From the IMG/VR virus record IMGVR_UViG_3300027987_000184, positions 1 through 39,131 of that record: a DNA stretch of 39,131 nucleotides, one strand, 5' to 3'. Under the pieces are notes generated by a model that saw only the letters and a list, made by a program, of their open reading frames with translations, was not told the DNA's origin and searched no databases. Source of the stretch: a virus. A program made the position numbers and the translations under genes. Shown here in pieces: positions 995 to 37,511 of this stretch; within the stretch, counting starts at the first letter, position 1, and every line of letters begins with the position of its first letter.

Positions 995-1101
995 GCGGGC
1001 TGAATAAGGTGCATACCATCGCACCAAGGCCGAACCGATCGTTTAACCTTGCGCAAAAGACGCGGCCCATTTTCAACGATTTTTTAATAAGGAGGCAATA
1101 A
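991..1101 (+). CDS. 36-residue hypothetical peptide
   Basis: This short frame starts at ATG 991, overlapping the upstream stop as ATGA, and ends at TAA 1099-1101, whose last base is the first base of the next ATG (TAATG). It thus fills the gap between two genes exactly, as translationally coupled phage genes do. The product is basic, with several Arg/Lys and the C-terminal sequence FNDFLIRRQ. No domain is recognised. The downstream gene's ribosome binding site AAGGAGG (1089-1095) lies inside its last codons. It could instead be a chance open frame in a leader, so confidence is moderate. Confidence 0.4.
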   Translation: MSGLNKVHTIAPRPNRSFNLAQKTRPIFNDFLIRRQ

Positions 1102-1679
1102 TGGCGGCACATGGCCAGAAAACACGTTTACTCGACCGCCCGCCATCATGGCGGCGGGCATGGCAGGTAGTTGTGGACCCCGGCACCGATAATAGCACGG
1201 GCCGATTGAAGGAGAAATATACGTGGTTCAGGGACAAGTGGGAATTGTTTGCCAATGAGGTAGCCGGTTTGGGCGCGGTTGTGATAACGTTTGACTTTAA
1301 GCCCGTTCCAAAGATGACGTGGAAGACCATGAAGTGCCCGTTGATAATCAACTTCATTGGATATTACACCGGCAACCATGCCACGCCGCAGGGGCCTACG
1401 TTCCAAATATATGACCACGTGGGCACCGATTGGGAAGAGGTGCCCGATGGGATTTTGGATGTGGGCCGCACGACGGAAGAATTTAAAACCATGTACGTTC
1501 CCTTCGACGATAAGTACTTTGACGCGGATAATAACGTGCGGCTCCGCATACTTCATCCGGTTGTGGGCGGCAACCCGCTTCATGAACTTCATGTGAATCA
1601 TGTGGGACTTGCCATAGGTGGCGTGACAACCACAACCACAACCACAAGCACCACAAGCACTACAACCACGGGGCCGTAA
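1101..1679 (+). CDS. Structural-type protein with Thr-rich C-terminal tail
   Basis: The family of this 192-residue protein is not recognised. The body (1-175) is rich in beta-forming residues (for example GAVVITFDFKP near residue 58) and looks like a compact beta-sandwich. The last 17 residues switch to a tract of Thr with interspersed Ser, encoded at 1626-1670 by mixed ACA, ACC, ACT, ACG and AGC codons, then Gly-Pro. The same tail ends seven other virion-type genes here, so I infer a virion component such as a head fibre or decoration protein, although it lies upstream of the terminase rather than in the head cluster. The start is well supported by AAGGAGG at 1089-1095. Confidence 0.7.
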   Translation: MAAHGQKTRLLDRPPSWRRAWQVVVDPGTDNSTGRLKEKYTWFRDKWELFANEVAGLGAVVITFDFKPVPKMTWKTMKCPLIINFIGYYTGNHATPQGPTFQIYDHVGTDWEEVPDGILDVGRTTEEFKTMYVPFDDKYFDADNNVRLRILHPVVGGNPLHELHVNHVGLAIGGVTTTTTTTSTTSTTTTGP

Positions 1680-14593: not shown

Positions 14594-14770
14594 ATGACCC
14601 AGCAAATTAAAAAGGACGCCATACGCCGACAGCGGCTGGCAAACAACCCCGCACTCGAACCCGAGTTGCGTTGGTACATCCAGCAACTTAACGCGGCGCT
14701 TGGCCAGAACACGTTTGGCACTACCACAACCACGACCAGCACCACTTCGACCACAACCACTTCCGCTTAA
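14594..14770 (+). CDS. 58-residue Thr-tailed peptide after the capsid gene
   Basis: A very small gene with strong AAGGAGG before ATG 14594, ending at TAA 14768-14770. The first 41 residues are a charged helix (IRRQRLANNPALEPELRWY), the rest a Thr/Ser tract coded at 14720-14761 by mixed ACC, ACA, ACG, ACT, AGC and TCG codons. The short anchor plus mucin-like tail, located directly after the major capsid gene, suggests a capsid decoration peptide displaying the tract outward. That is inference; no family is recognised. It is the most compact Thr-tailed protein here and a good test case for modification. Confidence 0.8.
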   Translation: MTQQIKKDAIRRQRLANNPALEPELRWYIQQLNAALGQNTFGTTTTTTSTTSTTTTSA

Positions 14771-16601: not shown

Positions 16602-17183
16602 ATGCCTCAACCCCACAGCACCAAAAACTACACAATCCTCAAAGGCATCATGTACGTGGCGGAACACGACGCGGCTACCGGCGTTGTGGGCGCGTATACG
16701 GACCTTGGGAATGTGGTAACTGCGGAAATCGAACCCACGGTTGAGCGGTTGCCGCATTACAGCAACCGGAGCGGGTATCGGGTGAAGGATGCAAACCCGG
16801 TGATTAATACGGACTACATGCTCCGCGTTACCCTTGATGAACACGCGGCGGTAAACCTTGCGAAATATTTGCAGGGCATGCTGACCGGTGGCGGCGACAC
16901 CATTTATGCCCTCATGGGCATGGATAAAGAATACGCCATTCGGTTCATTGAGGACAACCCGCACGGGCCAAACAAAATCTGGGACCTTTGGAAAATAACC
17001 TTGGCTCCCGCCGGGCCGTTGCAACTCGTAGGCGACGGTACGGAATGGGCCGTGATGGAATTGCAGGGTGAAGGATTGGCCGACACCAAAAACCATCCGG
17101 AAAGCCCGTACATTACGGTTGATTACAAAGGCGGCGAAACCACTACCACAACCAGCACCACGACAACCACTACGTCGGTTTAA
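16602..17183 (+). CDS. Major tail tube protein with Thr-rich tail
   Basis: The 193-residue product has the mixed beta composition and length of siphovirus tube proteins, with KGIMYVAEHD near the N-terminus and a C-terminal beta region with TEWAVMELQGEGLAD. It is followed by the frameshifting chaperone gene and the tape measure, as tube genes normally are. Tube proteins polymerise into the channel for DNA. The end is a Thr/Ser tract coded at 17139-17174, then Ser-Val. Carried by every tube subunit, such tails would stud the whole tail surface if exposed. AAAGGAGG precedes ATG 16602. Confidence 0.75.
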   Translation: MPQPHSTKNYTILKGIMYVAEHDAATGVVGAYTDLGNVVTAEIEPTVERLPHYSNRSGYRVKDANPVINTDYMLRVTLDEHAAVNLAKYLQGMLTGGGDTIYALMGMDKEYAIRFIEDNPHGPNKIWDLWKITLAPAGPLQLVGDGTEWAVMELQGEGLADTKNHPESPYITVDYKGGETTTTTSTTTTTTSV

Positions 17184-20452: not shown

Positions 20453-20881
20453 ATGATACAAACCGGGCAACAAACACTGGGCGGATATCAATTTTATTGG
20501 GACCCCGATAACATGGCAATACCGGAGAAGAAGAAGATGGTTGCCGAGACCCAAACATACGGCGGCTCCGCGATTTTTGAATGGGATGCGTTATTGGTAG
20601 GGACCCAGGTTGTTTTGGAATGGAATTTCATGCCGAAGGGTATGTATAAAAAACTCCGTGAGCAATATATACAAACGGGCGTTGATTTTGAGTGGAACCC
20701 ACAAACGGGCGGGAACCGTTACACCGTTCGAATGGTGGATTTGGAAGGGGATTATTTTGGCACCGTGCATCATGAAGGGGATTTCCGCCGTAACGTTAAA
20801 TTGACACTTAGCATCCGGAGTTTAGCGGCCACGGTGCAAGCAACCACAACCACAACCACGAGCACAACCACAACCGCGTAG
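20453..20881 (+). CDS. Tail-tip-region protein with Thr-rich tail (possible distal tail protein)
   Basis: The 142-residue body is beta-rich (FYWDPDNMAIPEK, GGSAIFEWDALLVG, VVLEWNFMPKGMY, NRYTVRMVDLEGDY) and sits right after the tape measure, where distal tail or baseplate ring proteins are encoded. The final residues form a Thr/Ser tract coded at 20843-20875, ending in Ala. Distal tail proteins link tube and tip, but no decisive family match is seen. AGGAGG at 20432 lies somewhat far (about 15 bases) from ATG 20453, so coupling to the tape measure stop probably helps. Confidence 0.55.
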   Translation: MIQTGQQTLGGYQFYWDPDNMAIPEKKKMVAETQTYGGSAIFEWDALLVGTQVVLEWNFMPKGMYKKLREQYIQTGVDFEWNPQTGGNRYTVRMVDLEGDYFGTVHHEGDFRRNVKLTLSIRSLAATVQATTTTTTSTTTTA

Positions 20882-25811: not shown

Positions 25812-26059
25812 CGCCAGAAGAAATGCTACATGATTTTGCTCACAAATTTGAGGCATTATGTGAGCGGTTTGATGCAATGGAAGACGCGTTGCAATACCAA
25901 ACCAAACTGCTGGAAACCATTGTGGAGGCCATGCCAACGGGAAGGCCAAATGTTATGAAAGCGCTGGCACCGTTGTTCGAAAGCCCAATAATTAAAAACA
26001 ACCCGATGCTTGCTGATATGGTTAAAAACTTCACCGCCAATATGGGAGGCGAACAATGA
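25808..26059 (+). CDS. Small helical tail-region protein
   Basis: An 83-residue helical protein (HDFAHKFEALCERFDAMEDA, TKLLETIVEAM) followed by a Met-rich amphipathic part. It overlaps both neighbours by ATGA and has GGAGGTG before ATG 25808. Family unknown. The heptad-like spacing in the first half suggests a short coiled coil, perhaps a clamp or chaperone for the fibre proteins downstream. Confidence 0.65.
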   Translation: MTPEEMLHDFAHKFEALCERFDAMEDALQYQTKLLETIVEAMPTGRPNVMKALAPLFESPIIKNNPMLADMVKNFTANMGGEQ

Positions 26060-26577
26060 GCGAATTTTATCATACACCGTATGAAGACGGCGTTACGGAA
26101 TACAAAGCCGCCGACATGAACGTGCCATTGGGCGAATTGGACCAAGCGCTGAATGACATCCGTGGCCCCAAATATTACGACTTCATGGGCCAATATTTGG
26201 GCGATATTTTGAACAGCAATGCGTTGCTTTTGCAAGGCCTCACGGCCCGGTACATGGTACTCAAGGCCGGGGCACCGGGCTCCCACGTTTACGCCGGGGT
26301 CGCCACGGCGGCCCAGGCCGTGTTCACCATAAAGCGGAACGGCGTGCAAATTGGAACCGTTACCATAAACGCCGGGCACAATAAAGGCGCGTTCAGCGTG
26401 GCGGCGGATATTGCGTTTTACAATGGCGACCTTTTGGAATTGTATGGGCCGAACCCGGCGGACGCCAGCATGCAAGATGTAAGTTGGAATTTGATTTTGG
26501 AGCGGCCCGACCCGGCGGATATAACAACCACAACCACGACCACAACCACGACAAGCACGACGACGACCGTGCCATAA
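26056..26577 (+). CDS. Fibre-type protein with Thr-rich tail
   Basis: The 173-residue product has an N-terminal helical part (ADMNVPLGELDQALNDI) and a beta-sandwich-like part (AQAVFTIKRNGVQIGTVTIN, AFSVAADIAFYNGDLLELYG) resembling small tail-fibre modules found in many siphoviruses. The C-terminal Thr/Ser tract is coded at 26524-26568, followed by Val-Pro. It overlaps the preceding stop (ATGA) behind GGGAGG. First of four consecutive Thr-tract proteins, so probably a fibre base or surface component. Confidence 0.65.
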   Translation: MSEFYHTPYEDGVTEYKAADMNVPLGELDQALNDIRGPKYYDFMGQYLGDILNSNALLLQGLTARYMVLKAGAPGSHVYAGVATAAQAVFTIKRNGVQIGTVTINAGHNKGAFSVAADIAFYNGDLLELYGPNPADASMQDVSWNLILERPDPADITTTTTTTTTTSTTTTVP

Positions 26578-26586
26578 GGAGGAAAT

Positions 26587-27684
26587 ATGGCGTTAAAATT
26601 GATCGAAGGCTTCCGCGCAGTATACGGATCATCTACAACCGATTGGACGACGTATTTGCGCAAAAAGGGATATTTTGTGTCGGGAACAACTTCCAATTAT
26701 ATCGGCCCTTATGGAAGATGGTCGGCACCTAATAACTACGGTTTGTGTTTGAATAGCGCGCCGTATTATGCGGGGATGAAATATCTTAATAAAACTAAAC
26801 GATTATATGTCGGAATGGCATTGTATAAAGCTAATGGAACGCCCACGTATACCACTGGCCAGCCGTTTTTTCAATTTTATGATTATGATAACGTGACCCG
26901 GCTTGTGCGAATGCACATGGAAGCGGATTTCTCGATATCCGTTTACAATGCGGCGGGCACGTTGTTAGGGCAAACCGCCGGAGGGGTAGTAGGGAATGAG
27001 AGTTGGTTTTATTTTGAGGCGTATATTAAAGCGGACGCATCGGCGGGAGAAGTTATTATACGGATAAATGAGCAGGTTGTTTTAAATTTATCAGCGAAAA
27101 ATACCGATTCGGGTGCGGCGGGCAACGTTGGCGCGATCCGGATGTGGCAAGTAAATTCGGCGCAGGATTTGTATATCACGGATTTATACGTGGACGATGC
27201 TCAATTTCACGGGAATTGCCGGGTGCGCTCATTTGTGCCCGATAGTGACGAAACTCATAGTGATTGGACGCGCAATACCGGGGCCAATGATTATGAATGT
27301 GTTGATGATATTGCACCCATTGACGGCGATACCACATACATTGAGGGGCAAAATATTGATGATAAATCATCGTTCGGTATAACAACCGGGGCTTTAGCGG
27401 AAGTGGTTAAGGGGCTCGCCATTGATAATTATTACCGGGCATCCAACGCGGGGCAACCAAGGCGTATTCAGGCCTTGGTACGCTCGGGCGGCAGTGATTA
27501 TAAACAACCCCGGTCCGGTTCGGCCACGACATCATATAAAATGAATTACGCCGTGGTTGAAAAAGATCCGCAGGATAACGGCACATGGAATCAATCCAAA
27601 ATTGAGGCGGCGGAGTTTGGTGTGGCGTTAACGTATAACACCACAACCACGAGCACAACCACAACCACAACCACAACGGTCTAA
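26587..27684 (+). CDS. Lectin-like (ConA/LamG-type) fibre protein A with Thr-rich tail
   Basis: The 365-residue product opens with LKLIEGFRAVYG, then a jelly-roll of the concanavalin/LamG class (YVGMALYKANG, FFQFYDYDNVTRLVRMHME, SWFYFEAYIKADASAGEVII, DLYITDLYVDDAQ), a bridging segment with ANDYECVDDIAP, and a second beta part. The end is a Thr/Ser tract coded at 27640-27678. The second half aligns with the next gene (PYECVDEIP there), so the two are tandem paralogues. A receptor-binding or surface-display role is inferred. AAGGAGG precedes ATG 26587. Confidence 0.7.
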   Translation: MALKLIEGFRAVYGSSTTDWTTYLRKKGYFVSGTTSNYIGPYGRWSAPNNYGLCLNSAPYYAGMKYLNKTKRLYVGMALYKANGTPTYTTGQPFFQFYDYDNVTRLVRMHMEADFSISVYNAAGTLLGQTAGGVVGNESWFYFEAYIKADASAGEVIIRINEQVVLNLSAKNTDSGAAGNVGAIRMWQVNSAQDLYITDLYVDDAQFHGNCRVRSFVPDSDETHSDWTRNTGANDYECVDDIAPIDGDTTYIEGQNIDDKSSFGITTGALAEVVKGLAIDNYYRASNAGQPRRIQALVRSGGSDYKQPRSGSATTSYKMNYAVVEKDPQDNGTWNQSKIEAAEFGVALTYNTTTTSTTTTTTTTV

Positions 27685-27698
27685 AAATGGAGGCGTAA

Positions 27699-28760
27699 AT
27701 GGGAAGAATTTGGATTGACGGTTTTGAATATGGCGGAGCGACAACATTTCTCGGAGGCATATATACCGCTTCGGGCATGACCGCGTTAGGGACGCCACGG
27801 GCCGGGTTTAGTGGGAATTATTACCTCAACGCCGGTTCGGGTTTTTCATATATTCAAAAGGAATTGGATGCGGCCCTTTCGGAAATATATGCGGCGATTA
27901 AAGTTTATCCGCAAGTTAGGACGAGTGATGGGCCGGGCGTTTTGGGTTTTTATGACTCCGCCGGAACGGCAATCATGGGAATTAAATTTTATTATGACGG
28001 CTCAACTTATTTTTATATACGGGCGGAACGCGGGGCACAAAGTTCGGGTAATATACTGGGCACCGGCCTCATCCCGATTTTGCCATCAACCGCCGTGCAT
28101 CTTGTGGAGGTGTATTACAAACCGCTTAATAGCGGAGGAATATGCCGGGTTCGGTTGAACGGTGTTTTGGATATTAATTATACGGGGGACACCACAGCGG
28201 GGCTTGAAAATGTCAAAAAGGTGCGCGTGGGATACGCCGGTAGGGATAATTATTTATCCCAATATGACGATTTCGTTTTGGATGATTCGCAAAGAATTGG
28301 AAACACAAGGATTCAAAAATTGCAAATAAGCGGCGCGGGCACGACCGGGGAGTGGGATGCCAGCGCGGGCAACCCTTATGAATGCGTTGATGAAATACCT
28401 TTTTCGGATACGGATTTTATATCAACCAACGTGCCCGGTGAAATTGCAACGTTTGCTTGTGGCGATATGACGGGCAACGTTAGCTCGGTTAAGGCGTTGT
28501 TATTGCATGGCAGAATGCTATATGAAGGAAACCCGGCACCAAACAAACAAAAATTAGCGATTCGGGTGAATGGAACCAATTATTTTAGCGGAAGATTTAC
28601 GCCGGGCTTATCAGCGGCTCCGTTTCAAAAATTGTGGGCGGTAAACCCCGATGATTCACAACCGTGGGAAGAGGCGGATATAAATGCCATTGAAATAGGA
28701 GTTCAAGCGGTGCAAATGACCAGCACATCGACAACAAGCACAACCACAACCACACCATAA
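27699..28760 (+). CDS. Lectin-like fibre protein B with Thr-rich tail (paralogue of A)
   Basis: A 353-residue paralogue of the preceding protein. It has WIDGFEYGG at the start, a ConA/LamG-like domain (SYIQKELDAALSEIYAAIKV, AVHLVEVYYKPLNSGGICRV, YTGDTTAG followed by KVRVGYAG and YDDFVLDD), then the bridge GNPYECVDEIP and a C-terminal beta part with PWEEADINAIEIGVQ. The Thr/Ser tract lies at 28719-28754. Sequence identity to A is modest in the lectin part and clearer in the bridge, suggesting an old duplication. GGAGG precedes ATG 27699. Confidence 0.7.
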   Translation: MGRIWIDGFEYGGATTFLGGIYTASGMTALGTPRAGFSGNYYLNAGSGFSYIQKELDAALSEIYAAIKVYPQVRTSDGPGVLGFYDSAGTAIMGIKFYYDGSTYFYIRAERGAQSSGNILGTGLIPILPSTAVHLVEVYYKPLNSGGICRVRLNGVLDINYTGDTTAGLENVKKVRVGYAGRDNYLSQYDDFVLDDSQRIGNTRIQKLQISGAGTTGEWDASAGNPYECVDEIPFSDTDFISTNVPGEIATFACGDMTGNVSSVKALLLHGRMLYEGNPAPNKQKLAIRVNGTNYFSGRFTPGLSAAPFQKLWAVNPDDSQPWEEADINAIEIGVQAVQMTSTSTTSTTTTTP

Positions 28761-28769
28761 AGGGTTCGA

Positions 28770-31700
28770 ATGGCCGATTATCAAAAAAGTACGCAAATAC
28801 TCGGACAAGTTGATTACGATCCATCGGGGGAGCAACAGGCTACCCAAATTGTGGGTCAGGTTGAGTGGGGTGTAACAACCACAACCACAACAAGCACAAC
28901 CACAACTTCGACGACAACCACGTATGAATTCTTCGATGATTTTGAAACGGGGGATGCGAGCAAGTGGGATGCCTCCGGTGGCACGCCTACGTTCTTGAGC
29001 GGTTTGGATACGTGGACCGACCCGCGTTTTGGCACATACCAAATTTTCGCTGAGAGCGCCGATTACGTTGATAAGAATTTGCCGGAAAGCGATGAATATT
29101 ATGCCTCATTTTATTGGCATCCCGGAAATGCGTTTTACGATTTTGTCATCACCTTCATGTATAATACCACAGTTTTAGGGGCTGTGCGATATTATGAAGT
29201 AAATGAATATTTCTACGCTATGGCAGGCGCGGTTACGCTTGCAACATCAGGAACCACATGGAAAAAGTCGCTGGGCGCTTCAGGCCACATCGCGAAGTTT
29301 CCGGTATATGTGGAATTTTATTACAAGATAGCCGATACGGGCGGGCGTTTCGTTCTTAAAGCGGATGGTGTAACGATATTTGATATAACGGGGGACACAA
29401 AACCGGGAAGCGAAACGGTTATCAATAAGATACGCATTGGGCACAGCTCTTCATTTGGTTCGATTATTGATAACATCAAAGTATCACGTACCCAATTTCC
29501 GGGGTATTATAGGGAATGGCGGCCCAGCAGTTTTAATGTTGATTTTGAAGACCAACTTTTGGACGATTGGGATGTATTGGGAGGGGCCGTTGATACGGGT
29601 GACATTGTGGCATCCGAGCCGGGGTTTGGTGGAAGTTATAATTTGGCATTGACGGGCTATGGTGATTTTCTGGCGAAGGTTGTAGCGCCAACGGATGAGA
29701 TATTTTTTGATTTTAAATGGAAATGGGATGGTAGCGCATCCGCCAGAATTGTAACTTTTAAATGGGGCGATTCCAATTTGGTGCGGTTTGGCCTTGACAC
29801 CACAAGCGATGAATTTTATTTGCTTATAGGTGCGTCGGTGGAGGACAGCATAGCCGCCGCGTTTGCAACCACGCCACGTAGGTTTCAAATTCACCTAAAA
29901 ATCCATGATACGAATGGTTTTGTAAAGATTTGGGACGACCAAAAAAGGCTTATATTATCTTTCAATGGGGATACCACAACCGGTAGGCCCAGCGCTTTAG
30001 TTGACAATTTGATCATAGGGGATGTTGCCGGGTATGGCCTTGAATTTGATGATATCAAATATGATGTGTTGGATTGGCCCAATGGGTTGACAACCACAAC
30101 GACCACGACTCAGACCTCAACCACGACAACCCATTTTATACGGGATTCACACATTGGCGTTCAAGCATTAATGCGGGAAGATGTTCCTTCATTACGTGTA
30201 ACCCACACGGGCGTTCAAAAGCTGGCGCGTGAACCGATGCCGAATCTTTATGTGACCCATGTATCCGTCCAAATGTTGGAAGCCAATACATCCAGCACAA
30301 CGACACATTTTTGGGAAGAAGATTTTGAGGCAATGGCCGCTGGCAACCCGCCTACGGGTTGGACGGAGGTATGGGCCACGGCCCCGACAACCACGGTCGA
30401 GAAATTATATGGTAAGCGGGCGTTGAGCGTTGACATATCCGCGAACGCCCGTGTTGCGGTAACGGACGACCCGATTGATAAATATAATGTTGAGGTTTTG
30501 GGCCTCATAAAGGCGATTGACGATTTTTCAACGTTGGCCGGTGGCGTTTGTGGCCGGGTAAGCGGGGCCGCCGGAACGGAGACGGGATATGTGCTATTTA
30601 TGGATCCGGCGAACGATTTGATATCGTTGCGGCGGTACAAAAACGGCACACAGGCCACGCTAACAACCGCCAGCAAAACGATCGCGGCGGGCTTGTGGTA
30701 TTGGATGCGACTGCGTATAAACGGCACGAATATCAAAGCCCGTGTGTGGGCCAAATGGACGGCGGAGCCGGGTACGTGGGACATTGATTACACTGACTCA
30801 TCGAATCCGGTCAGTACGGAGGGCGGTGCCGGTGTTTGCACTTACAACGCGGATGCTTATTGCGATTATTTTGCGGCGGAAGGATGGGACGCTAATTGGC
30901 CGATACCGTTGCCATCGTTAACAACCACAAGCACAACCAGCACCACGACAACGCACACGACGACAAGCTTGGTTACGAGCACCACAACCACGGGCACCAC
31001 AACCACATCGGAACCGGGTGCCCAATATTGGACCGATTTTAGCGAACACACACCGGACACGGCCCCGGCGGATTGGACGGAGGTTTGGGAAGCGCCCGTG
31101 GCTACCATATACGCCCGTGAGGACGGACAATATGGCCAGCAACATTTGGAAATAGCTCATAGCACTTACGGCCATTACTTCGCCCAATGGAATGACGTGC
31201 CGGTTGCAAACAACGTGGAAACGTTGGTGAAATTTAAAGTGGTTGACGCATATCCGATCACCGGCCAGGATTACATGAGATTGATTGTGCGGCAAACCGG
31301 CGGGAGCGCCAATAAGAACGCTTACGAATTACGTATTTATCCGGACAATAACAATTTCAAGATTTACAAATGGGTGAACAATGTTGCAAGCCAGCGCGGG
31401 GCCACGGGCGCGCTTACAATAAATTCCGGAACGTGGTATTGGGCACGGTTCCAGGTTATTGGCAACCTTTTGAAAGCCCGTATGTGGGCCGGGCAACCAA
31501 GCGACGAACCGGGCGCGTGGGGCATTGAGACAACGGACAGCGCACATGCCGGGGTTTATGGCACCGTAGGCCTTGGTGGATATAATGGAAGCGAAATTCA
31601 AATTGATTACTTCGCCGTGGGCGTGGGCGGCGATGCGGCCCCGGCCCCGGCGGATTATGTAACGACAACCACGACCACGACAACCACAACCAGCACCACA

Positions 31701-31772
31701 ACCACGGGCACGACGGAAACCCCAATGGAGCCCGCAACCTACGCGGCAGTAGGGGTTCTTCAACGAAAATAA
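28770..31772 (+). CDS. Beads-on-a-string fibre: four lectin-like domains joined by Thr-rich linkers
   Basis: In this 1000-residue protein the N-terminus has two short repeats (TQILGQVDYDP and TQIVGQVEWG), then a Thr linker (28875-28922). Domains at about 53-245 and 250-440 share with the paralogue upstream the motif GDT-x2-G, V/I-rich strand, IGH/IGD and DDI/DNI. After linker 30090-30131 comes a short region with three copies of a TH-x-GVQ-x-L motif (about 458-506). A third domain (515-712) and a fourth (752-955) have the ConA hallmark WYW-x-R followed by KAR-x-WA and DYFA. Between them is the 30-codon linker 30921-31010; the last tract is 31662-31715. The multi-domain form fits a long fibre with mucin-like stalks. 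Confidence 0.75.
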   Translation: MADYQKSTQILGQVDYDPSGEQQATQIVGQVEWGVTTTTTTSTTTTSTTTTYEFFDDFETGDASKWDASGGTPTFLSGLDTWTDPRFGTYQIFAESADYVDKNLPESDEYYASFYWHPGNAFYDFVITFMYNTTVLGAVRYYEVNEYFYAMAGAVTLATSGTTWKKSLGASGHIAKFPVYVEFYYKIADTGGRFVLKADGVTIFDITGDTKPGSETVINKIRIGHSSSFGSIIDNIKVSRTQFPGYYREWRPSSFNVDFEDQLLDDWDVLGGAVDTGDIVASEPGFGGSYNLALTGYGDFLAKVVAPTDEIFFDFKWKWDGSASARIVTFKWGDSNLVRFGLDTTSDEFYLLIGASVEDSIAAAFATTPRRFQIHLKIHDTNGFVKIWDDQKRLILSFNGDTTTGRPSALVDNLIIGDVAGYGLEFDDIKYDVLDWPNGLTTTTTTTQTSTTTTHFIRDSHIGVQALMREDVPSLRVTHTGVQKLAREPMPNLYVTHVSVQMLEANTSSTTTHFWEEDFEAMAAGNPPTGWTEVWATAPTTTVEKLYGKRALSVDISANARVAVTDDPIDKYNVEVLGLIKAIDDFSTLAGGVCGRVSGAAGTETGYVLFMDPANDLISLRRYKNGTQATLTTASKTIAAGLWYWMRLRINGTNIKARVWAKWTAEPGTWDIDYTDSSNPVSTEGGAGVCTYNADAYCDYFAAEGWDANWPIPLPSLTTTSTTSTTTTHTTTSLVTSTTTTGTTTTSEPGAQYWTDFSEHTPDTAPADWTEVWEAPVATIYAREDGQYGQQHLEIAHSTYGHYFAQWNDVPVANNVETLVKFKVVDAYPITGQDYMRLIVRQTGGSANKNAYELRIYPDNNNFKIYKWVNNVASQRGATGALTINSGTWYWARFQVIGNLLKARMWAGQPSDEPGAWGIETTDSAHAGVYGTVGLGGYNGSEIQIDYFAVGVGGDAAPAPADYVTTTTTTTTTTSTTTTGTTETPMEPATYAAVGVLQRK

Positions 31773-31775
31773 AAC

Positions 31776-31805
31776 TTGACGGCGACGCGTGGTGCGGTGT
31801 ACTAT
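31776..31805 (+). promoter_or_regulatory. Probable promoter for the glycan cassette, matching the capsid promoter
   Basis: TTGACG (31776-31781) and TACTAT (31800-31805) are separated by 18 bp, the same spacing as in the promoter at 12484. The 13 bases GTGGTGCGGTGTA (31789-31801) are identical to 12497-12509 and sit at the same offset from the boxes. Just downstream ATACGACATATTG (31804-31816) is the reverse complement of 12521-12533. It lies in the 108-bp gap after the last fibre gene, so it should drive the cassette separately. Confidence 0.65.
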
Positions 31806-31830
31806 ACGACATATTGTGATTTTTATATTG

Positions 31831-31855
31831 TACGGGCACGCTATACGGTGCCGTA
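31831..31855 (+). promoter_or_regulatory. Leader hairpin before the glycan cassette
   Basis: TACGGGCAC (31831-31839) pairs with GTGCCGTA (31848-31855) over 8 bp with one bulged G and an eight-base loop. It lies between the promoter and the AAGGAGG of the first glycosyltransferase. It has no following T-run. It may stabilise the leader or be an operator; the evidence is only the symmetry. Confidence 0.4.
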
Positions 31856-31880
31856 ACTATAAAAACATGAAGGAGGAAAA

Positions 31881-33251
31881 ATGAAAGTAGCAATTTTATC
31901 ACATTTTCAAAGTTTCGCGCCCAGTTACGCTCTGGCCGTGGGATGGTACGAACGGGCCAAAATGTTGGAATATTTTGGCGTTGACTTTACATTCTTCACG
32001 GCGAAAAACTGCCCGCCGGATAGTTACCCTCATCAAGAGGCCGTGTTGCATACCATACCGGGGAGCCGCCCATTTGACGAAAAGGTTGCCCGGTTTACGG
32101 ACCAATATATCGAATTGCTGGGCGACTTCGATGTGGTTTGTACGCCGGACATTATATACCAACGAAAAGGGAATTTTTTGGCGTGGAACAAGGCCGCCCG
32201 CAACGCCGCCGAAGTTATTAAGCCTTGGTGGCTTCATTGGATTCATTCTTCATGGACAAAACGCCCGCTGACGTTAAATTTAAAGGACCCCGACTCCCTC
32301 CGTTACCAAATGATGGACCGGAGTTTTTTGGTGTATTTGAACCAAATTGAATCATTCAATTTGGTGCAGATGTATGCTACCGAAGAGAAATGGGTGCGGT
32401 ACGTACACAACCCCAAGGACCCGCGTGTGTTTTTCGACATGCACCCATTTTCATGGGAAATTATACGGCGGCTCAATATTTATGAAAAGGACGCCGTTTG
32501 TATTTTCCCACATTGTTCCACGCGTATGGATTCCAAAGGAATTGACGGCGTCATCAATGTTATGGCCGCATTAAAACGGGCGGGCAAGAGCATCGCCCTT
32601 GTGTTTTGTAATGCGAACGCCCGCAAGGTGCAAATTGAAATTAATGCCAAACGTGAACACATGAAGAAAAAGGGCCTTGTGGAAGATTCGGATTACATGT
32701 TCACCCACGGGCTCGATAACTATCGCCCGATGCCGCGCCAAGTGATACGGGATTTAATGCGAATATCGAACATATTTGTTTTCGCCAGTTGGCGGGAAAC
32801 CACGGGCAACGCATTTCAAGAAGCTCAAATAACGGGCAACCTCCTTATATTAAATCAACACCTGCCCTGCCTCCGCGAATTGGCCCGGCGCGACGATAAT
32901 GTTATATGGATCGACACAAGTTACAAAACGCCGGGCCGCATTGATGGCCAAACCGGGGACCTTCAGCAAGTTAATTATCAACCGAGCGACGATCAGTGGT
33001 TTGATTGGTTTGCCAAGGCCCGCGTTATACCGGCGCTGGAAATGAATAGCCGCCGGTACATGTGGGATTTTTCGTTTGAACGTATTTGGTTTGATCAATT
33101 TAAACCATTGCTGGAAGAGGCGACCCGTTTGGCCAATACGATTGACCCTCCCAAAATGCCGAAAACGAATGTGACGGAGATAACGGTTGATGATAACGTT
33201 GAGGCGTGCGTATTGGGCGACGTTGCGGCGGAAGGGGGTGCATCATGTTAG
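31881..33251 (+). CDS. GT-B glycosyltransferase (GT4-like)
   Basis: Transfers a sugar from a nucleotide donor to an acceptor. The 456-residue product has two Rossmann-like halves: an N-terminal acceptor domain (MKVAILSHFQ, FDVVCTPDIIY) and a C-terminal donor domain with DAVCIFPHC and the E-x7-E motif of retaining GT4 enzymes (E306 and E314 in WRETTGNAFQEAQITGN). There is no signal peptide, so it acts in the cytoplasm. It is the first gene after its own promoter, with AAGGAGG before ATG 31881. The donor sugar cannot be read from sequence; UDP-sulfoquinovose from the third gene of the cassette is a candidate. Protein, lipid or DNA acceptors are all possible. Confidence 0.8.
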   Translation: MKVAILSHFQSFAPSYALAVGWYERAKMLEYFGVDFTFFTAKNCPPDSYPHQEAVLHTIPGSRPFDEKVARFTDQYIELLGDFDVVCTPDIIYQRKGNFLAWNKAARNAAEVIKPWWLHWIHSSWTKRPLTLNLKDPDSLRYQMMDRSFLVYLNQIESFNLVQMYATEEKWVRYVHNPKDPRVFFDMHPFSWEIIRRLNIYEKDAVCIFPHCSTRMDSKGIDGVINVMAALKRAGKSIALVFCNANARKVQIEINAKREHMKKKGLVEDSDYMFTHGLDNYRPMPRQVIRDLMRISNIFVFASWRETTGNAFQEAQITGNLLILNQHLPCLRELARRDDNVIWIDTSYKTPGRIDGQTGDLQQVNYQPSDDQWFDWFAKARVIPALEMNSRRYMWDFSFERIWFDQFKPLLEEATRLANTIDPPKMPKTNVTEITVDDNVEACVLGDVAAEGGASC

Positions 33252-34066
33252 TGCATGCCTACTTGACCGACGGGTTTTTTCCAATGGCAGAAATGTTTTT
33301 GTTGAGTTTGAGGGTTGCCGCCGGTAACGCGCCGCCGTATGTGTGGCTTGATACGCGTGGGCTTGATGGTTTGCAAATTGCACAACTCAAAACCTTTTAT
33401 CCTGATGGAATGTTGCATGTAGCAAATAAAAGGCTTCCGTTGCGGGAGTGGGCGGCGCGGGCCGGTGTGCCCGTGGGCACCATGAAACAATACAAGAAGG
33501 AATGCGAGCAACGGTTTGTATCCAATAATAATAAGGTCTGGAAATTGATGACCGCCGGGGACGACCGCGTCCAAGCGCTTTATGACATTGTATGGAATCG
33601 CCATGCTATTGAGTTGCCCGCGTGGGACACGCCTCCCCGGTACGTGGCCCATTTTGATATCGATACGCTCTTCCGTAAACCGTTGACCGGGTTTGTGAAA
33701 ATGATGGCGGAACATGATATATGGATTAAACTTCGCCGGGGACACCCGACCATGAAGGCTCGTATAACCATCGACATGATTTTAATGAACGGGGCCGACA
33801 ATGTGCGCTTGTTTTTTGACCGTTGGCGGCACCACATCAATCGAGTACAACCGGCGGACCGGCCCGTGGGCTGGGGCCAGGCCAGTTGCTGGCATGCGTT
33901 CACGGAAGTGGAGACAAAATTAAATTATGGAACTCTGCCGTTGAAATTTGGTTTGCCGGGCCGTAACGCGCCCGACGATGTTATATGGACGGGCAACGTG
34001 CATCGATTGGCCAAAACGGATTTCACTAAACTTTGCAGAAGGGAGTTGGAAAAATGGAGCGCGTGA
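33245..34066 (+). CDS. DxD-motif (GT-A-like) glycosyltransferase
   Basis: The 273-residue product has a DID motif (138-140, in VAHFDIDTLFRKPL), which in GT-A enzymes binds the metal and nucleotide sugar, preceded by a strand-turn pattern (ALYDIVWNRHAI) and followed by ITIDMILMNGADN. It resembles cytoplasmic glycosyltransferases of poorly characterised families. I start at ATG 33245, overlapping the upstream stop and just behind GGAAGGGGG, not at the earlier in-frame ATG. It overlaps the next gene by 13 bases. Donor and acceptor unknown. Confidence 0.6.
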   Translation: MLVHAYLTDGFFPMAEMFLLSLRVAAGNAPPYVWLDTRGLDGLQIAQLKTFYPDGMLHVANKRLPLREWAARAGVPVGTMKQYKKECEQRFVSNNNKVWKLMTAGDDRVQALYDIVWNRHAIELPAWDTPPRYVAHFDIDTLFRKPLTGFVKMMAEHDIWIKLRRGHPTMKARITIDMILMNGADNVRLFFDRWRHHINRVQPADRPVGWGQASCWHAFTEVETKLNYGTLPLKFGLPGRNAPDDVIWTGNVHRLAKTDFTKLCRRELEKWSA

Positions 34067-35295
34067 TTGTGTTTGGCGGTGATGGTTTTTGTGGATGGCC
34101 TACCGCATTACGGCTCAGCGCTGCCGGATATGATGTAACCATCATCGACAATTTTAGCCGCCGCACCATTGACGTGGAGCTTGGGTGTGAAAGCCTAACG
34201 CCGATTGTAACATTGGAGCAACGCGTTAAACGGTGGCGGGAATTGACCGGGAACAAATTGTTTTTTAAGCGGGTTGATATTGCTCGCAATTTTCACGGCC
34301 TTTGCGATGTGCTTACAAAATTAAAACCGGCAACGTTAATCCATTTCGCGGAACAACGGGCCGCGCCGTATAGCATGAAGAGCACGGCTCATAAGCTTTA
34401 CACGGTGCGAAATAACATTGAGGCAACCCACAACATCCTGGCCGCGCTTGTGAAATTGGAATTGGACGCCCATTTGGTTCATTTGGGCTCGGCGGGTGTG
34501 TACGGGTACGGCGGCGACGCGGCGTTTATGATACCGGAGGGCTATGTGAAGGCCCATTTGTTTGACCTGAGCGGCACGCGGTACGAACGGGAGATTATGT
34601 ATCCGGCGGCACCGGGGAGCGTGTACCACATGACCAAATGTATGGACGCCTTGATGTTTCAATTTTATAACAAAAATGACGGCCTCCGCATTACGGATCT
34701 TCATCAAGGCGTTGTGTGGGGCACACAAACGGATGAAACCGCCTTGCATCCGGAGCTTGTCAACCGGTTCGATTATGATGGCGATTACGGCACCGTTCTA
34801 AACCGTTTTATAATGCAGGGCGTTACCAAACACCCGCTCACCATATACGGCACGGGCGGGCAAGTGCGGGCGTTCATTAATGTGCAGGACACGGTGCGTT
34901 GCATACAAATCGCCGTTGAAACTCCGCCACAACGCGGAAATCGCGTGCGGATTTTTAACCAAACCGCTGAACAGCTCCGGTTGCATGATTTAGCCGCCCG
35001 TGTGGTGCATGTAACGGGTGCGGAAATCCGGCATTACCGGAATCCACGTGTGGAAGCGGAGGATAATAAATTGTCGCTGGAAAACCTCCATTTCCGGGAA
35101 TTGGGATGGGACCCCATCATGTTGAATGATGACCGCATAGCGGAGATTTGCGTTGTGGTGCATCGTTTTAAAGAACGGGTGAACATGGATAAAATTTTAG
35201 CAACAAGTACATGGCGGCGCGGTATGTGCGCGGATATGGAGGGGGACATTGGGCCGGGGTGCGAATGCCAAAGTGCTAATCAAGCTGTTGCGTGA
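34054..35295 (+). CDS. sqdB: UDP-sulfoquinovose synthase (SQD1/SqdB/Agl3 type)
   Basis: Makes UDP-sulfoquinovose from UDP-glucose and sulfite using bound NAD, in the cytoplasm. The 413-residue product follows plant SQD1 closely: GGDGFCGWPTALRLS (8-22) with the NAD glycine motif, ESLTPI (46-51), HFAEQRAAPYSM (97-108), DLHQGVVWG, DETALHPE, NRFDYD, FGTALNRF-like YGTVLNRF, FNQTAEQ (301-307) and NPRVEAE (330-336). The catalytic Tyr191 and Lys195 are in YHMTK; the unusual Thr of SQD1 is Ser here (S146). General UDP-sugar epimerases lack these SQD1-specific blocks. ATG 34054 has AAGGGA upstream; an in-frame TTG at 34033 is less likely. Archaeal Agl3 supplies sulfoquinovose for glycoproteins, a close precedent. 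Confidence 0.92.
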   Translation: MERVIVFGGDGFCGWPTALRLSAAGYDVTIIDNFSRRTIDVELGCESLTPIVTLEQRVKRWRELTGNKLFFKRVDIARNFHGLCDVLTKLKPATLIHFAEQRAAPYSMKSTAHKLYTVRNNIEATHNILAALVKLELDAHLVHLGSAGVYGYGGDAAFMIPEGYVKAHLFDLSGTRYEREIMYPAAPGSVYHMTKCMDALMFQFYNKNDGLRITDLHQGVVWGTQTDETALHPELVNRFDYDGDYGTVLNRFIMQGVTKHPLTIYGTGGQVRAFINVQDTVRCIQIAVETPPQRGNRVRIFNQTAEQLRLHDLAARVVHVTGAEIRHYRNPRVEAEDNKLSLENLHFRELGWDPIMLNDDRIAEICVVVHRFKERVNMDKILATSTWRRGMCADMEGDIGPGCECQSANQAVA

Positions 35296-35806
35296 CCGCC
35301 CGCACGCCACGGGCGCGGAAATTGGCGTGTTTGCTGGGGACACCAGCCGCCGGTTGCTTGCGGAGTTGCCGGGTTTGAAGATGCTGGTATGCGTTGACCC
35401 GTGGGAATACAATGAGGAATTCTATAACGACATGCCGTACAAGCGCGGGCGTATTTTAAGCGCAAATTGGGAAAATGTAAGGGAAGAATTTCGGGCGTGC
35501 GTTTTGGCCCCGTATGCCGGGCGGGTGTGGGCCATTAAGAACACCAGTTTGGGTGCCGCCCGTATTGTGGAAGACGATGTTTTGGATTTTTGTTTTATCG
35601 ATGGAAATCACACGTATAAACACGTTCGCGCCGATACCTATGCTTGGTGGCCCAAAGTACGCGTAGGCGGTTTGCTGTGTGGCGACGATTACCGAGACCG
35701 GCCAGGGTATGGCGTAATAAAAGCCGTGACTGAAATATTTGGTGCCCGTGCCAGTAATCACGGGCGAATATGGTACGTTGAAAAATTCGAAGGAGATTTG
35801 AAATGA
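35249..35806 (+). CDS. SAM methyltransferase in the glycan cassette (Methyltransf_24-like)
   Basis: The 185-residue product has GAEIGVFAGDTSRRLL (SAM-binding glycine motif), LVCVDPW, and FCFIDGNHTYKHVRADTYAWWPKVRVGG, a layout shared with sugar- and small-molecule-methylating enzymes of this group. The start is TTG 35249, six bases after GGAGG (35238-35242); no in-frame ATG fits. It overlaps the synthase gene by 47 bases and its stop overlaps the next start, so it is translated as part of the cassette. I infer O-methylation of a glycan built by the neighbours. Target not proven. Confidence 0.7.
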   Translation: MGRGANAKVLIKLLRDRPHATGAEIGVFAGDTSRRLLAELPGLKMLVCVDPWEYNEEFYNDMPYKRGRILSANWENVREEFRACVLAPYAGRVWAIKNTSLGAARIVEDDVLDFCFIDGNHTYKHVRADTYAWWPKVRVGGLLCGDDYRDRPGYGVIKAVTEIFGARASNHGRIWYVEKFEGDLK

Positions 35807-36462
35807 TTGTTATTGTGGCAGGTATGCACCGAACCGGAACGTCGGCGCTTGCCGGTATGCTTCATCATAACGGGATTATAATGGGCCACGCGGAAGATTT
35901 TTATCCGCCGCCCATGAAGGAAAACCCGAAAGGATTTTTTGAAAATGTGCGGTTTCGCCGGATAAATGACGCATTGTTAAACGGCAATGGCTACCGAGTG
36001 AAAAGCTTCGACCCCGACGTGCCCGTGATTAAAACAACCATGATCGACACCCGGTTGCAAATGATACGGCTTATCGATCAATACGATTCCAAACATGCGG
36101 CCTGGGGATGGAAGGATCCGCGCACGTGCCTCACGATGAACGTGTGGCTTGGTTTGTTGGAACAAATGGGCCTCATTGGAACGGTTGCTGTTTTGGTGCC
36201 ATGCCGGGCGACCAAGGATGTGGCGGCCAGCATGCTCCGCCGGGGCAACAAGGGCACACATACACAATTTGAAGATCTTGCCCGTACATATAACAAACGG
36301 TTGCTGGTATCATTGACCGAATACAATGTGCAATTTAAAACGGTTGACTTCGAGAAGTTTATGCTTAAGACGGAATTTGTGGTATCGGGGATAAGCAAGT
36401 TTTTGGGATATCCGATAACCGATACCACGTTTGTGGACCCAAATATTTCGCAGGTGGCATAA
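35803..36462 (+). CDS. PAPS-type sulfotransferase-like protein
   Basis: The 219-residue product begins with VIVAGMHRTGTSAL, the 5'-phosphosulfate loop of sulfotransferases (residues 4-16), followed by a helical region with GFFENVRFRRIN, a WGWKDPRTCL segment and PCRATKDVAASMLRR, the usual place of the 3'-phosphate binding Arg/Ser. Such enzymes move sulfate from PAPS to hydroxyls of sugars or proteins. Beside a sulfonated-sugar synthase this hints at a doubly acidic glycan. Start ATG 35803 is behind GAAGGAG and overlaps the upstream stop. The family is fairly clear; activity and acceptor are inferred. Confidence 0.7.
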   Translation: MIVIVAGMHRTGTSALAGMLHHNGIIMGHAEDFYPPPMKENPKGFFENVRFRRINDALLNGNGYRVKSFDPDVPVIKTTMIDTRLQMIRLIDQYDSKHAAWGWKDPRTCLTMNVWLGLLEQMGLIGTVAVLVPCRATKDVAASMLRRGNKGTHTQFEDLARTYNKRLLVSLTEYNVQFKTVDFEKFMLKTEFVVSGISKFLGYPITDTTFVDPNISQVA

Positions 36463-37055
36463 TGGACACACGGATTGACGTGCGGATTGCATACGAGCCG
36501 GGCCGTAAATTGGCGGCGGCGTACAATCGCGCAATGAAGGAGAGCGTGGCCGAGTGGGTTTTGTTTTTGGATTGGGATTTATTTAATTGCAATCCGTACT
36601 GGTACGATTGCTGCGTGAGCGCCATCAATCAAGTGGGTGATGTGGCGGGATGGATTACGTGTGTCACAAACCGGATCGGGAGCAATTCGCAAAAAGCCAA
36701 GCGGTTCATGCCGCCGGACGACCCGCCACCGTTGAACAATACCATTGAACACCACATGGCATATTCGCGGCGGGCACACCAGATGAACAATACAATGAAT
36801 GAAGATGGAACCCTTGCGAAAGCAAGGGTTGTGCGGGTGCCCGGCGCGTTAAGCGGCTTTTTTATTTTAACGAGCAAAACGGCCTGGGCGGCCTCCGGCG
36901 GATTTGATGAAAATCGGAAGCGGCTTATGGGCGTTGATAACGCATATAGCTCGGCGTTATCACGGGCGGGATATCAGTTGTGGTGCATGCCCGGCTTATA
37001 CTTTTATCATATTTATCGGTTGAAAGCGCGCATGTGGCGCGGAAACCCAAAATAA
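36462..37055 (+). CDS. GT2-type (GT-A) glycosyltransferase
   Basis: The 197-residue product has YNRAMKESVAEWVLFLDWDL, where DWD (37-39) is the metal and nucleotide-sugar site, and ASGGFDENRKRLMGVDNAY followed by ALSRAGYQLWCMPGLYFYH, the acceptor-side pattern of GT2 and polypeptide-GalNAc-transferase-like enzymes. It is short and lacks the usual first 60-80 residues of GT2 enzymes, so it may start in a minimal fold. ATG 36462 overlaps the upstream stop as TAATG. The resemblance to mucin-type O-glycosyltransferases in the GVD-x2-Y block is suggestive given the Thr tracts, but not proof of peptide acceptor use. Confidence 0.65.
   Translation: MDTRIDVRIAYEPGRKLAAAYNRAMKESVAEWVLFLDWDLFNCNPYWYDCCVSAINQVGDVAGWITCVTNRIGSNSQKAKRFMPPDDPPPLNNTIEHHMAYSRRAHQMNNTMNEDGTLAKARVVRVPGALSGFFILTSKTAWAASGGFDENRKRLMGVDNAYSSALSRAGYQLWCMPGLYFYHIYRLKARMWRGNPK
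36809..36830 (+). repeat. Perfect GAAA-tetraloop hairpin inside the GT2 gene
   Basis: AACCCTTGC-GAAA-GCAAGGGTT forms a perfect 9-bp stem with a GAAA (GNRA) loop in coding sequence at about residues 117-123. No T-run follows. A perfect stem of this length in a coding region is notable; it could affect translation or be coincidental. Confidence 0.6.
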
Positions 37056-37070
37056 AAAAGGAGGCATGAA

Positions 37071-37511
37071 ATGAAAAAGAGGTATTTAGCAATCGCGTTA
37101 GGAATGGTTTTGTTTATTGCCACGGTGGCGTTCGCCATTGATTGGACCACGGCCAATCAAGCGACCGTGGCGTGGGACGCCATTACATACCAACTCGACC
37201 CCGGTGAACGGGTGACCTACGTGGTGTATTTGGCGAACGCAAAGACGGACCCCAATAAAGCGAACCCGGTGGAAGTTGCACAAACCCAAGCGACACAACA
37301 AACGGTGACGCTTGGAACCAAGGGCTCGTATTTTGTGGGCGTTAAATCGGTTATTGAAATAGATGACGGTGCCGGTAATTGGAGCGCGGCGTCGGAAAGT
37401 GCCATTGGATGGAGCGACGACCCTCAGTATGCGCAGGGTGGAGCAATTTTTGGCTTAAGGTTTTACCCTGCGCCCAATGTACCGACGGAATTGAGACCCG
37501 TGTCCGGATAG
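37071..37511 (+). CDS. Exported FN3-like protein
   Basis: The 146-residue product starts with a clear signal peptide (basic KKR, hydrophobic core, Ala-X-Ala at VAFA, cleavage after about residue 22). The mature part matches a fibronectin type III fold: VAWDAITYQLDPG, VTYVVYLANA, TQQTVTLGTKGSYFVGVKSV. AAGGAGG precedes ATG 37071. Phage proteins that are exported by the host are uncommon among virion genes, so it may act in the periplasm or at the surface, for example in superinfection exclusion or adhesion. Not joined to the sugar genes by overlap, but follows them by 15 bases. Confidence 0.7.
   Translation: MKKRYLAIALGMVLFIATVAFAIDWTTANQATVAWDAITYQLDPGERVTYVVYLANAKTDPNKANPVEVAQTQATQQTVTLGTKGSYFVGVKSVIEIDDGAGNWSAASESAIGWSDDPQYAQGGAIFGLRFYPAPNVPTELRPVSG

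Follow-up and report, generated by a model that had tools for sequence, protein, structure and literature searches.

Why should a tailed phage carry, immediately 3′ of its tail genes, a relative of the uridine diphosphate (UDP)-sulfoquinovose synthases SQD1 and SqdB? The question is raised by the 39,131-base virus record IMGVR_UViG_3300027987_000184, here called the window, which derives from an uncultured tailed phage. Its head and tail genes are in the usual order: large terminase (2126), portal (6389), scaffold (12606), major capsid (13576), neck (15678), major tail protein (16602), tape measure (17776), then further tail and fibre genes to 31772. Directly 3′ of these are six genes (31881–37055) on a single strand, each overlapping or abutting the next, just where an earlier note on this DNA had described a tightly packed cassette. 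The answer proposed here, plausible but tentative, is that the phage has in these six genes a glycan pathway of its own, sited with the tail genes, that would provide an acidic, modified coat on Thr tails of virion proteins. The six are as follows.

31881..33251, plus strand: GT1, a GT4-type glycosyltransferase of 456 amino acids (Pfam Glycos_transf_1 E 2.6e-5, a score below the Pfam cut-off; PHROG 2170 glycosyltransferase E 1.1e-8)
33245..34066, plus strand: P286, 273 amino acids from the ATG at 33245, by predicted fold a GT8-like GT-A-fold glycosyltransferase
34054..35295, plus strand: SQD, a UDP-sulfoquinovose synthase (SQD1/SqdB) family enzyme of 413 amino acids, assigned by sequence, profile, tree and predicted fold
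35249..35806, plus strand: class I methyltransferase (Methyltransf_24, Pfam E 3.2e-17), its start codon uncertain
35803..36462, plus strand: putative 3′-phosphoadenosine 5′-phosphosulfate (PAPS)-type sulfotransferase (Sulfotransfer_3, Pfam E 2.3e-5) with a GMHRTGTSAL P-loop and a WGWKDPRT motif
36462..37055, plus strand: short GT2-type glycosyltransferase of 197 amino acids (PHROG 14179 E 1.1e-9; Pfam PF00535 E 0.0012)

All six genes are also present in the phage records L002 (86.9 kb), L174 (87.2 kb) and L176 (83.0 kb), whose major capsid proteins are 78–91% identical. The window's gene order and the upstream tail genes are retained in L002 and L174, and in L176 the last two genes are inverted. 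Purifying selection acts on the cassette proteins: in comparison with L002 and L174 the proportion of nonsynonymous differences (pN) is 0.19–0.39, with that of synonymous differences (pS) saturated, so that dN/dS is not computable.

Sequence and modelling both assign SQD to the SQD1/SqdB family. It matches Arabidopsis SQD1 (PDB 1QRR) with an E value of 1.2e-92 over almost the full length, at 38–40% identity, as against approximately 1e-7 for GalE entries. The NCBIfam model NF041015 scores it at 329 bits and the GalE and RmlB models at about 45 bits; the equivalog cut-off of NF041015 is 575 bits, which SQD does not reach, and the equivalog label is neither claimed nor used to argue for activity. 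With its AlphaFold2 model as query, Foldseek finds 1QRR at a TM score of 0.92 and the next class at 0.80, epimerases and decarboxylases being clearly behind. In an initial tree two outgroup branches were very long and the root fell on the window's own branch; this was taken as a long-branch artefact, and the tree was replaced by one without an outgroup and another with eight outgroups. In these the family including SQD1 is split from the eight other sugar short-chain dehydrogenase/reductase (SDR) outgroups with SH-aLRT 100, and SQD groups with SQD1/SqdB apart from the GalE-type enzymes, the placement which the earlier note had proposed as a check. An ordinary epimerase is ruled out by the SQD1 match, the profile scores, the tree and the fold.

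The active-site positions are H97, R102, S146, A147, Y150, Y191, H192 and K195. Among them are the Y-x-x-x-K pair and the catalytic Ser/Thr (Y191, K195 and S146), and the catalytic Y191 and K195 named in the earlier note are in place, with H192 beside the former. SQD shares with SQD1 (PDB 1QRR/1I24) and bacterial SqdB its fold, length, Y-H-x-x-K and catalytic Ser/Thr, together with the blocks HFAEQRxAPYSM and FDYDGxYGTxLNRF; the E of GEYG in SQD1 is V in SQD, as it is in bacterial SqdB. Agl3 of Sulfolobus acidocaldarius is the UDP-sulfoquinovose synthase for the S-layer N-glycan (PMC4388408), and the counterparts of the Agl3 residues that have been shown to matter (H95, R101, Y148, S180, Y182 and K186) are kept.

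One position departs from all of these enzymes, and the earlier note overlooked it. UDP-sulfoquinovose synthases have the active-site signature [ST]MG, and the residue after the catalytic Ser/Thr varies with the type of reaction among nucleotide-sugar SDRs ([ST]DE, TCE, [ST]MG; PMC8987622). In SQD the motif is S146-A147-G148, with Ala in the place of Met. Agl3 needs its Met145: the M145A mutant is inactive, which T144A is not (PMC4388408). In the alignment of the tree set, Met is kept in 35 of 35 bacterial SqdB proteins, in SQD1 and in 16 other viral proteins. At this position the four cassette phages read A, T, T and A, and a second P286-linked clade (six viral loci and two contigs of metagenome-assembled genomes) has T or A. 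Among viral loci with a readable motif, Met is kept in 59, none of which has P286, and lost in eight, all of which do (five strong and three weak profile matches); these rows share ancestry and so are not independent events. A far more divergent SQD homologue beside P286, in L177, likewise has Thr at this position. The sequences thus read as an active-site change tied to one particular transferase. [Two contigs of metagenome-assembled genomes with a Met-less SqdB, L077 and L081, are titled Pacearchaeota and Desulfohalobiaceae and are possibly binned phage contigs.]

That transferase, P286, has no match in Pfam, PHROG or NCBIfam. Its AlphaFold2 model (pLDDT 91.7) has LgtC (1g9r, E 2e-7) and glycogenin as top Foldseek matches, at TM scores of about 0.55, and a DxD motif, D139-x-D141 within HFDID, is unchanged in 12 homologues. 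The model therefore predicts a GT-A fold with DxD, and P286 is probably a GT8-like glycosyltransferase. Nine of its 10 viral homologues have a SqdB-like gene nearby and the tenth reaches the contig end. In the searches made, matches were confined to viral contigs, with none in the isolate-phage or plasmid collections.

Because the active-site Met is Ala, the product of SQD is unproven. The earlier note had called it a UDP-sulfoquinovose synthase; the family half of that statement holds, and the half that has it making UDP-sulfoquinovose is not supported, given the dead Agl3 Ala mutant. With the active site altered at this very point, the product in particular calls for caution. It is conceivable, though on the unlikely side, that the chemistry itself has changed, so that SQD would not add sulfite to UDP-glucose and would supply P286 with another nucleotide sugar (a 5,6-ene, an epimer, or one involving a different UDP-sugar or nucleophile). 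The invariance of Met in bacterial SqdB and SQD1, its replacement in all the P286-linked groups including L177, the variation of this residue with SDR reaction type and the Agl3 mutant all point that way. Set against them, the other important SQD1/Agl3 residues are kept and the overall fold is that of SQD1; the cassette sulfotransferase also fits a sulfur theme, though it does not prove one.

The genes present, how far they are conserved, the families they belong to, their predicted folds and the Thr tails can all be read from the sequence, and on them a pathway may be proposed whose product and target are hypothetical. SQD would turn UDP-glucose and host sulfite into UDP-sulfoquinovose or a close C6-modified relative, and P286 would use the UDP-sugar so made. 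The GT4 and GT2 enzymes would attach the remaining sugars, and the methyltransferase and PAPS sulfotransferase would cap the glycan. No 19-residue window in the cassette proteins has a mean hydropathy above 1.8. As none of these proteins has an obvious membrane-spanning segment and no step on a lipid carrier is evident, the glycan would most likely be placed directly on cytoplasmic phage proteins at assembly. In tail and head-associated proteins, O-linkage would probably be to the Thr-rich linkers and to the poly-Thr tails at the C-terminus, and the outcome would be a particle coated with an acidic, modified glycan, perhaps the strongly acidic coat that the earlier note envisaged. The reactions, their order, the acceptor and the benefit, be it shielding or attachment, are what we infer from this arrangement.

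Thr tracts, defined as at least 10 Thr/Ser within twelve residues, are present in eight window proteins, and in seven, the major tail protein among them, they end no more than two residues from the C-terminus. The candidate acceptors are as follows.

1101..1679, plus strand: 192-amino-acid protein with a poly-Thr C-terminal tail, candidate acceptor
14594..14770, plus strand: 58-amino-acid protein directly 3′ of the major capsid gene, ending ...TFGTTTTTTSTTSTTTTSA, candidate acceptor and possibly a decoration protein
16602..17183, plus strand: major tail protein (PHROG 807 E 4.5e-27), ending ...GETTTTTSTTTTTTSV, candidate acceptor
20453..20881, plus strand: 142-amino-acid protein after the tape measure, with a poly-Thr tail, candidate acceptor
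26056..26577, plus strand: tail fibre-related protein of 173 amino acids (PHROG 7049 tail fiber E 5e-12) with a poly-Thr tail, candidate acceptor
26587..27684, plus strand: 365-amino-acid protein with a poly-Thr tail, candidate acceptor
27699..28760, plus strand: 353-amino-acid protein with a Thr/Ser tail, candidate acceptor
28770..31772, plus strand: virion/tail fibre-like protein of 1000 amino acids with five Thr-rich tracts, directly 5′ of the cassette, candidate acceptor

Equivalents of the 58-amino-acid protein are found in many lineage members, and in L002 and L174, too, the cassette is preceded by a homologue of the 1000-amino-acid protein with several Thr tracts. Outside the P286 group, 63 viral SqdB loci (966 kb) have no Thr tract. 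Some tracts in the lineage are about 70 or more residues long (e.g. in L196 and L214). We know of no description of poly-Thr C-terminal tails across the virion proteins of a phage lineage. In mycobacteriophages, capsid and tail-tube subunits carry glycans at their C-termini (PMC12619734, citing Freeman 2023) and the virion modification is O-glycosylation (PMC11652166, citing Freeman 2023). By analogy, the poly-Thr tails may plausibly be O-glycan acceptors, which leaves the virion, the target named in the earlier note, a plausible one; the tie between the tails and this particular cassette is argued from analogy and position.

Several observations weigh against the proposal of a sulfonated coat on Thr tails. 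Besides the Ala in the SQD motif and the dead Agl3 mutant, of the 82 loci that encode a related capsid or tail protein (L195–L276, mostly fragments), 52 have Thr tracts. Among 16 larger lineage records 12 are without a SqdB match and 13 without a P286 match, making the tails a trait of the lineage. P286 with SqdB is also present in phage loci without Thr tracts, and a phage-encoded sulfite supply in the form of PAPS reductase (CysH) was found in none of 26 records. A strict tie of the tails to the cassette is rejected, as lineage members without the cassette have the tails also. The nine records of at least 50 kb are suggestive of a link between Thr tails and glycosyltransferase content in general: the eight with tracts have glycosyltransferase matches and the one without has none, smaller fragments being mixed. 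A wider conjecture, to be entertained with some reserve, is that in this lineage the poly-Thr tails on many virion proteins serve as all-purpose attachment sites for O-glycans, with one glycan cassette exchanged for another; the cassette of the window, with its remodelled SQD1-family active site and dedicated GT8-fold transferase, would then make a sulfonated or new C6-modified, methylated and sulfated coat undescribed in any virus.

Phage glycosyltransferases often alter host surface sugars, and bacterial SqdB normally feeds sulfolipid synthesis, as where the SqdB-type gene of Sinorhizobium pSymB (L154) is followed by a glycosyltransferase. Both would favour a cassette whose target is polysaccharide, lipid A or glycerolipid at the surface of the host, and whose use is to exclude superinfecting phages or to remodel the membrane. 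However, there is no flippase and no lipid-linked or membrane-bound step among the cassette genes, which stand amid late structural genes beside Thr-rich virion proteins, in L002 and L174 also, and this explanation is improbable.

Hypermodification of phage DNA bases is more improbable by far. Virus-encoded DNA-hypermodifying glycosyltransferases are known (Pyle 2024, as cited in PMC12619734), and the sole PHROG match of the methyltransferase is named DNA methyltransferase. The protein is nevertheless of the Methyltransf_24 family and not a typical DNA methyltransferase, the three relatives of 83–87 kb have no gene of thymidylate-synthase/hydroxymethylase type, and the cassette adjoins tail genes. 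That host DNA, a fragment of a sulfolipid or capsule operon, was caught by chance or misassembly is barely credible, for though SqdB is common in bacteria (at least 590 stretches match it), other samples have yielded phage records with this cassette in the corresponding position, not one of 80 bacterial SqdB loci has relatives of the remaining five genes in its vicinity, base composition has no break at the boundary between tail genes and cassette, and P286 matches nothing in the plasmid or isolate-phage collections.

As related phages keep the six genes and the bacterial loci are without the other five, the cassette is not a stray host fragment; it is a phage module, and the earlier note was right to treat it as phage-owned. 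Its single promoter fared less well: the motif TTGACG-18-TACTAT is present at 31776, but a scan of the region gave 8 promoter-like sites where 7.7 are expected by chance.

The genes flanking SQD and P286 add detail. Orthologues of GT1 in the same position are 74% (L002), 70% (L174) and 48% (L176) identical, and those of the short GT2 protein 70%, 52% and 52%. Homologues of the methyltransferase adjoin SqdB/P286 in L002, L174, L176, L003, L008, L053 and L067. The sulfotransferase scores 25.2 bits against a Sulfotransfer_3 cut-off of 27, all four of its homologues match that family (best 7e-8), its GMHRTGTSAL loop, the putative 5′ PAPS-binding loop, is conserved, and a profile search of the PDB gave no match; from sequence, it and the methyltransferase are assigned at the level of family. 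Right after the cassette (37071–37511) is the gene of a 146-amino-acid protein with a signal-peptide-like N-terminus, 64% conserved in L002.

The closest bacterial relatives of SQD are 54–61% identical. They include the Sinorhizobium gene mentioned above and the sole close homologue in a Prochlorococcus genome, and are taken by us, from neighbourhoods and general knowledge and not from record annotation, to be sulfolipid SqdB genes. [A relative on a Pelagovum plasmid (L156:5998-7904) is followed directly by a PAPS reductase gene, a possible local source of sulfite.] Phage SqdB is itself widespread: at least 72 viral contigs or loci carry SqdB-like genes, most in one large viral clade apart from that of the window. 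A second, virus-only SqdB clade has the normal TMG motif, is without P286 and occurs on phage contigs of up to 153 kb (L015, L020, L031, L038, L066, L073 and about 30 more viral loci). The contig of L273 (G039), which belongs to the lineage but is without P286, encodes at 35541–36713 a SqdB-like protein in which FDLSK stands in place of YHMTK, so that the catalytic Tyr is gone; the catalytic Thr and some 30 residues of the substrate region are missing too, and the copy is decayed or repurposed. Another SqdB-like gene (L067:9986-10756, on a contig shared with L175) is broken exactly at the catalytic LG^[ST] motif by an insertion resembling the beginning of an intein (CYDDQTEIFTDSGWKLFKDLKDEDKVAT...), whose far side would lie beyond the end of the contig.

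How does this compare with known systems? SQD differs from SQD1 and SqdB in its gene neighbourhood, which has virion genes and the gene of a GT8-fold enzyme in place of sulfolipid genes. The parallel with Agl3 would be sulfoquinovose in a protein glycan and not in a lipid, though no oligosaccharyltransferase or lipid-carrier gene of the kind expected for an N-glycosylation pathway is seen in the cassette. A putative UDP-sulfoquinovose synthase was reported in 2020 from a Mu-like phage of the Cariaco Basin and discussed as a host N-glycosylation gene under pressure (PMC7785012). It too is a phage-encoded SqdB-like gene with a proposed role in glycosylation, but that phage is of another type and the main text of its report describes no six-gene cassette or virion acceptor. 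With that report and the viral contigs counted above, a phage SqdB-like gene alone is not new. Mycobacteriophage Che8 and its relatives have phage glycosyltransferases and glycans at capsid and tail-tube C-termini, as the window may; the papers that cite Freeman 2023 on them (PMC12619734, PMC11652166, PMC11256854) mention no sulfonated-sugar enzyme, sulfotransferase or poly-Thr tails, and the acceptor in the window is a putative one. No description of a complete cassette, of such an active-site change, of a GT8-type partner or of poly-Thr tails was found in the open-access literature.

The interest thus lies in the intact cassette together with the altered enzyme and the poly-Thr tails. The replacement of Met by Thr or Ala provides natural variants for probing the role of the unexplained Met in the UDP-sulfoquinovose synthase signature, and the number of viral contigs with SqdB-like genes suggests a possible influence of viruses on the sulfur cycle where it passes through sulfoquinovose. 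If the proposal is true, a virus would for the first time have been shown to possess a pathway that puts a sulfonated or related sugar on its own particle, and phage virion glycosylation would reach beyond mycobacteriophages to a large lineage of uncultured phages whose acceptors are marked by a simple signal that can be seen in the sequence.

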